From: a virus
DNA: 55,164 bases
Strand: one strand, 5' to 3'
Virus record (IMG/VR): IMGVR_UViG_3300046466_000192
Span: 1-55,164 of that record
Part shown: positions 53,574 through 53,793 of the stretch, one piece after another
Layout: every line of letters begins with the position of its first letter
Position numbering within the stretch: the stretch's first letter is position 1
Notes under the pieces: generated by a model
Seen by the model: the letters and a program-made list of their open reading frames with translations, nothing else
What the model was told of the DNA's origin: nothing
The model's database searches: none
Translations under genes and position numbers: made by a program

Positions 53574-53793
53574 AAGCAGTAATAAGATGCACGTCATTTA
53601 CCGGTGTGTACCCTGACTTATACTTACTACTGCTTATGCTAGCAATTCACTTATGTGTTAAAGTTACAAGGTGTCTGTTCTCGCCTACTTTAACCTAATT
53701 AAGCTACTCGTCTAGTTATTTTAAGTAAACCAAACCGGCCTCAATTGTAACACTTGCCGGAAGTATTAAAGTTACTTGAGTGTAGGTTTACTT
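53574..53793 (-). ncRNA. Structured non-coding RNA with pseudoknot
   Basis: This explains most of the gene-free stretch 53440-53787. Element 1 (53723-53793): AAGTAAACC/GGTTTACTT encloses CTCAA/TTGAG, GTAAC/GTTAC and ACTT/AAGT, whose loop GCCGG can pair with CCGGC at 53735-53739 as a pseudoknot. Element 2: GTTAAAGT/ACTTTAAC (53657-53664 with 53687-53694) plus an inner 5-bp helix. Element 3: a 13-bp helix with one G-U (53574-53586 with 53623-53635). A tRNA-like fold follows 3 bp later. The upstream gene's stop lies in helix 1. The single-stranded segment between elements 1 and 2 contains a short frame ending in GCT-TAA. Function unknown. Confidence 0.65.

Follow-up and report, generated by a model that had tools for sequence, protein, structure and literature searches.

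A putative tmRNA tRNA-like domain and an array of exchangeable RNA modules in marine Bacteroidota phages

What kind of RNA ends in a tRNA-like fold that resembles part of a transfer-messenger RNA (tmRNA) but is preceded by a pseudoknot and further helices in an order that neither a standard nor a permuted tmRNA has? This question is raised by the IMG/VR virus record IMGVR_UViG_3300046466_000192, of which the whole stretch of 55,164 bases, positions 1 to 55,164, is called the window here. A preliminary description of the locus had seen a pseudoknot, a short reading frame, helices and an alanine tRNA-like end, and had suggested a new class of phage RNA resembling GOLLD and ROOL. As argued below, by its sequence the tRNA-like end is the tRNA-like domain (TLD) of tmRNA without the mRNA-like ring, and the RNA upstream of it is an array of exchangeable, nestable modules rather than one fixed RNA class, which is well supported, as is the anatomy of the locus. 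For the function we propose, with a probability of about 0.4, that this TLD-only tmRNA competes with the host tmRNA for SmpB and alanyl-tRNA synthetase (AlaRS) while carrying a fast-changing array of modules. Both the genes surrounding the locus and the RNA itself are oriented on the minus strand, on which the window has the order pseudoknot module (PK), module A, module E and TLD; compared with 100 shuffled versions of itself, the whole stretch of 331 nucleotides (nt) has a better fold than 99 (z -2.8).

The tRNA-like end

The TLD and the hairpin within it are located as follows.

53492..53570, minus strand: TLD of tmRNA type (RF00023), with acceptor GGGCGTG/CACGTCC, D-like segment, 34-nt hairpin, T arm and discriminator A
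53520..53553, minus strand: exchangeable hairpin of 34 nt in place of the ~300-nt mRNA-like ring of tmRNA

The window TLD matches the tmRNA model RF00023 with 35.6 bits (E 2.4e-14), the alignment running from the first to the last position of the model, with 35 nt of the window where 326 model positions are expected, and the two acceptor halves adjoin each other within 53570-53492. Taking the window and the relatives together, the matches cover both model ends, with 12-35 nt in place of the middle of ~304-326 nt. Neither this alignment nor the TLD lengths of the relatives leave room between the two TLD halves for an mRNA-like ring that would hold a resume codon, a tag frame and pseudoknots. 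The permuted two-piece tmRNA (RF04321) is rejected, as it gives only a weak partial match of 14 bits in a different order; the earlier view that the locus is linked to tmRNA, with an order neither standard nor permuted, is upheld. The ends of the inserts that stand in place of the ring are complementary: among 34 unique TLD inserts, 4.09 of 6 end positions pair versus 2.35 after shuffling (0/5000).

The TLDs of other clade members are clearer, reaching 65 bits (E~1e-26) and carrying the tmRNA segment GGUUUUGACG. A short TLD (70-130 nt) is present in 24 of 25 clade records, 7 of the 25 passing the RF00023 gathering score of 47 bits, and no full tmRNA was found among them; in the relatives the total TLD length is 65-177 nt. 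The acceptor stem has 7 base pairs in 86 TLDs. In 24 distinct cores 100% of the pairs form (0/500 shuffles), with position 4:69 being C-G, G-C or A-U and the T-stem pairs covarying too, while G3:U70 is retained in 23 of the 24 variants. Note that G3:U70 is the alanine identity element; the pattern argues that the alanine identity of the TLD is preserved by selection. The TLD has the tmRNA-type features of a 7-base-pair acceptor, G3:U70 and a T arm, with no normal D or anticodon arm. The identity of a tRNA is rejected, since there is no cloverleaf with an anticodon arm and neither ARAGORN nor Rfam calls a tRNA there. Of the alanine tRNA-like end described before, the alanine-type acceptor and the two acceptor halves lying together are retained, whereas the assignment to a tRNA gives way to the RF00023 TLD.

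Two further observations concern tmRNA in this group. The isolate Cellulophaga phage phi38:1 (NC_021796) has at L223:26803-27164 an unannotated full-length one-piece tmRNA (87.6 bits) with a 22-residue tag AQIEANMEAVNAILNLEVAVGV (ARAGORN), overlapped by an annotated opposite-strand open reading frame (ORF), and the records of loci L005 and L035 (G003, G013) have a second TLD ~1.5-2.8 kb from the first within the same phage genome. Since phi38:1, although more distant, has a full tmRNA, the molecule may have been cut down to a TLD within the wider group.

The upstream modules

Upstream of the TLD the window has three modules.

53725..53791, minus strand: pseudoknot module (PK), with homologues in loci L126 and L172 and compensatory changes including the pseudoknot helix
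53637..53717, minus strand: module A, AACTA-GACGAGTAGCTTAATTAG-(39-nt insert)-CATAAGTGAATTGC-TAGCA, 64 instances
53656..53694, minus strand: exchangeable hairpin insert of module A, with complementary ends
53576..53633, minus strand: module E, GCAGTAGTAAG-TATAAGTCAGGG..GTAAATGACGTGCAT-CTTATTACTGC, which recurs in other arrays

PK reads, from 53791 to 53725, GTAAACC..CTCAA.GTAAC..ACTT[CCGGC]AAGT.GTTAC..TTGAG[GCCGG]..GGTTTAC, where pairing is possible between the apical CCGGC of the hairpin and a GCCGG immediately outside the hairpin. The nested fold by itself is not unusual versus chance (z -1.5). In L126 and L172, 98% of the cells are paired and there are three compensatory double changes versus none in every slid register, one of the three, G-C to A-U, lying in the pseudoknot helix, which bears out the pseudoknot proposed earlier. 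Because L126 and L172 are nearly identical to each other, the PK covariation counts as one independent contrast, so that the support from homologues for a real PK structure is moderate. The strict scan gave only these two homologues and the looser scan mostly chance matches. PK stands alone upstream in the window but is nested inside the TLD in L126 and L172.

The two helices that had been noticed between PK and the tRNA-like fold are confirmed as modules A (53717-53637, z -3.4) and E (53633-53576, z -2.4). For module A, a covariance model built with the window's own copy included gives E=2e-17, and there are 121 double-change cells versus 43 after shuffling (0/500), with all slid registers failing; the covariation that the preliminary description had suggested looking for among homologous loci is thus present in PK, module A and the TLD. 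The insert ends of module A pair at 5.15 of 6 positions versus 3.04 with partners shuffled (0/5000). In its inner helix G-U exceeds A-C by 13:1, and therefore the minus-strand RNA is the molecule that folds. Module E occurs elsewhere free or nested within A.

The short frame ending in GCT-TAA, which had been compared with a tmRNA tag, does exist within 53712-53695, but it lies in the invariant paired core of module A as part of a CUUA/UAAG helix. In L038, L060 and L064 a C-G to G-C change turns GCT into GGT with the pair kept, and many arrays that bear a TLD have no module A (L013, L035, L039, L059). Since the pairing is kept through the codon change and TLD loci occur without A, the frame is rejected as a tag.

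Scanning about 90 related phage loci shows the array region to be a mosaic of conserved RNA modules, mostly 3' of an ORF of 62 amino acids. A search with this ORF retrieved 169 viral loci in IMG/VR. The A core, used as a query independently of the ORF, turned up at 70 loci, and 51 or more of these follow that ORF. In most close relatives the noncoding stretch lies behind the ORF stop, with a median of 310 nt (range 85-599) to the TLD end; in one subgroup protein genes precede it, and in L172 several other ORFs separate the ORF from the TLD. The plan of a unit is two conserved strands with a variable hairpin between them, into which other units are inserted with complementary ends, as in the arrays A(F())A-B()B-H()H-TLD of L017 and A()A-B()B-TLD(D()D) of L007. 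Module F likewise has significant pairing in its outer helix and in its inner one. The 122 inserts fall into 62 groups, 41 of which occur in at least two loci, and 26 of these 41 are shared between different kinds of container. Loci L016 and L017 have flanks 93-94% identical but arrays that share only about 40%, while locus pairs with flanks 98-99% identical share their arrays. Thus, of the suggested new class of phage RNA, the structured phage RNA stands but the single class does not, because PK, the middle modules and the TLD are separate, interchangeable units. It is also noted that further tRNA-like units that possess a T arm and lack an anticodon arm occur as module B (L007, L017) and nested in A of L038 (GATGTGG...GTGGGTTCGACTCCCACCATATCATC), and that structured units also lie 3' of the TLD in L002, L010 and L041 (for example AGAGAGATGGCAGATATGCAG...GGACACATCTCTCTT).

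In the collections searched the modules are restricted to one phage clade. Rfam scans, where made, gave no match to any module but the TLD, and the contigs recovered with E, D and the C-type TLD as queries are for the most part the same ones. A scan for the A core through 84,980 species genomes of bacteria and archaea yielded only two exact matches, which are taken as chance: neither has the second half of A, and one crosses an apparent coding stretch.

One could suppose that only the TLD is functional and that the modules are mobile hairpins, selfish or neutral, which insert into one another's loops within a noncoding region that tolerates them. The nested insertion, the complementary ends, the transposability between containers and the faster turnover of the arrays relative to their flanks (L016/L017) are what such elements would produce. 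However, neutral debris would not keep cores that are nearly invariant over divergent phages with covarying helices, and the modules were not found outside the clade in the collections searched. Pure neutrality is disfavoured because the cores are conserved, and we consider this explanation unlikely.

The phage and the neighbouring genes

The terminase and portal of the window resemble those of Flavobacterium elemo phages and Cellulophaga phages (TerL 45%; 62% to MW202828), and a Bacteroidota host is therefore likely; the clade consists of marine Bacteroidota phages. The window DNA has no DNA similarity to phage isolates. The window encodes the recombination genes Erf, exonuclease and resolvase, and its only tRNA called by ARAGORN and Rfam is tRNA-Met at 51924-51998. 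The features adjoining the RNA are the following.

53788..53976, minus strand: ORF of 62 amino acids with zinc-ribbon-like CxC...CxxC pattern, the marker gene directly upstream of the RNA array, 169 IMG/VR relatives
54005..54026, minus strand: promoter-like repeat AATACGAACACTATTGGATAAT, preceding both the ORF and the RNA, 3 window copies with 0 expected
53457..53478, minus strand: promoter-like repeat that follows the TLD directly and points into the next gene

The stop codon of the 62-residue ORF falls within the outer helix of PK. The protein gave no family above cut-off in PHROG and Pfam and a poor structure prediction (pLDDT 55); in the family alignment the C-terminal half is nearly invariant, YSYxPII..KTGNTIQIVSQ..S..VH..WRRK, and the N-terminus is zinc-ribbon-like. 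It is a candidate partner of the RNA. The repeat AATACGAAnACnnTTGGATAAT, with minus-strand copies at 51432-51453, 53457-53478 and 54005-54026 where none is expected by chance, is probably a phage promoter, its first half being T7-like. A promoter common to all TLD 3' sides finds no support, as 26 of 88 have it and so do 19% of random stretches.

This arrangement could be read in another way, in which the TLD is only a device of 3'-end processing and protection, trimmed by RNase P and the tRNA 3' enzymes, and the modules are a nuclease-resistant 3' untranslated region of the ORF mRNA. That the array lies directly behind the ORF in most loci, that in the window a promoter repeat follows the TLD and that modules occur both upstream of and within the TLD are consistent with it. 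But cleavage by RNase P would sever the upstream modules from the TLD, the strict G3:U70 and the kept D-like and T-arm features go beyond the needs of processing, and in L172 several other ORFs intervene between the ORF and the TLD; this reading is also improbable.

Possible function and comparison with known RNAs

By the proposal of competition with the host tmRNA, the locus yields a structured RNA downstream of the 62-residue ORF, with a 3' unit that is a TLD without ring and tag and with interchangeable, nestable modules occupying the ring's place and the upstream stretch. The TLD would be trimmed by tRNA enzymes, charged by AlaRS and bound by SmpB and EF-Tu and, having no resume codon or tag, would compete with the host tmRNA, damping trans-translation during infection, while the modules would supply a stable folded body. 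Recombination, perhaps by the Erf, exonuclease and resolvase that the phage encodes, would swap the modules because sequence turnover there would be tolerated or favoured. Mycobacteriophage DS6A carries a TLD-only tmRNA, and a molecule similar to it strongly inhibits tmRNA in Escherichia coli, perhaps by titrating SmpB (PMC4131195, PMC11915505). The window TLD, too, has no coding part, and by analogy the reading of the 3' unit that has most support is titration of SmpB with inhibition of tmRNA.

Several points weigh against this proposal. The 35.6 bits of the window TLD are under the RF00023 gathering score of 47, the D-like segment has diverged in C-type and A-U-type TLDs, and the RNA is a predicted one, as are its charging and SmpB binding. 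Moreover, the idea of a decoy leaves the presence and shuffling of the modules unexplained. Candidate roles for them are a stable body, a protein-binding surface, evasion by variation and tolerated mobile hairpins. A tentative view, which we hold to be possible rather than probable, is that of a combinatorial RNA locus, where one clade recombines and nests conserved RNA motifs around a tmRNA-derived end, in the manner of antigenic variation, and so generates variants of a phage RNA effector directed against a host defence or a host factor that recognises RNA.

By contrast, in a rearranged functional tmRNA the pseudoknot, module A as tag and the TLD would cooperate in trans-translation. While the order of pseudoknot, short frame, helices and TLD resembles tmRNA and phi38:1 has a full tmRNA, the supposed tag is a covarying helix core that changes to GGT-TAA with compensation, many TLD loci have no A, and PK and A are independent units, which makes this very improbable. 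Attachment-site remnants usually retain the 3' part only. That the TLD is such a remnant of integration into the host ssrA, described as a common integration site in PMC3146451, is rejected as the least probable reading, as no integrase was found among the tested window ORFs and the TLD has retained its two acceptor halves and its D-like segment throughout the clade, with covariation.

With competition for SmpB and AlaRS as the preferred reading, the locus would give an opportunity to test whether phages interfere with the rescue of ribosomes, and it is suggested that a fast-changing phage RNA may jam the host rescue of stalled ribosomes. The array also provides, ready-made in nature, a collection of structural RNA motifs that could be transplanted. 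For the exchange and nesting of folded modules no described counterpart was found in Rfam or the literature searched, and such an array may be categorically new.

Among known systems, GOLLD and ROOL are also large structured phage RNAs, tRNA-associated and with pseudoknots, but they are recognisable fixed families whereas the array here is a mosaic; the likeness to them suggested at the outset is not sustained, since the window has no Rfam match to them at gathering and the region none at E<=5. Nested mobile hairpin elements exist, and the fungal mitochondrial double-hairpin elements also place hairpins in hairpin loops, whereas the phage modules have two-strand cores that are conserved between divergent phages and linked to the TLD. 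The tag-less tmRNAs of mitochondria and Mallomonadaceae plastids have also lost the coding part and retained the TLD, but they are organellar, without a modular array, and the mitochondrial forms are usually permuted. The tmRNAs of RF00023, including the phi38:1 copy, share the acceptor with G3:U70, the GGUUUUGAC-type D segment (K type) and the T arm, while the RNA of the window clade is without the mRNA-like ring, the tag and PK1-PK4. The TLD-only tmRNA had come from one mycobacteriophage and a few organelles, and here it is near-universal in a clade of marine Bacteroidota phages. The RNA of Mycobacterium phage DS6A is likewise cut down to little beyond the tmRNA TLD, without a tag; it is, however, one short RNA, whereas in the Bacteroidota phages the TLD is clade-wide, with modules exchanged within it and before it.
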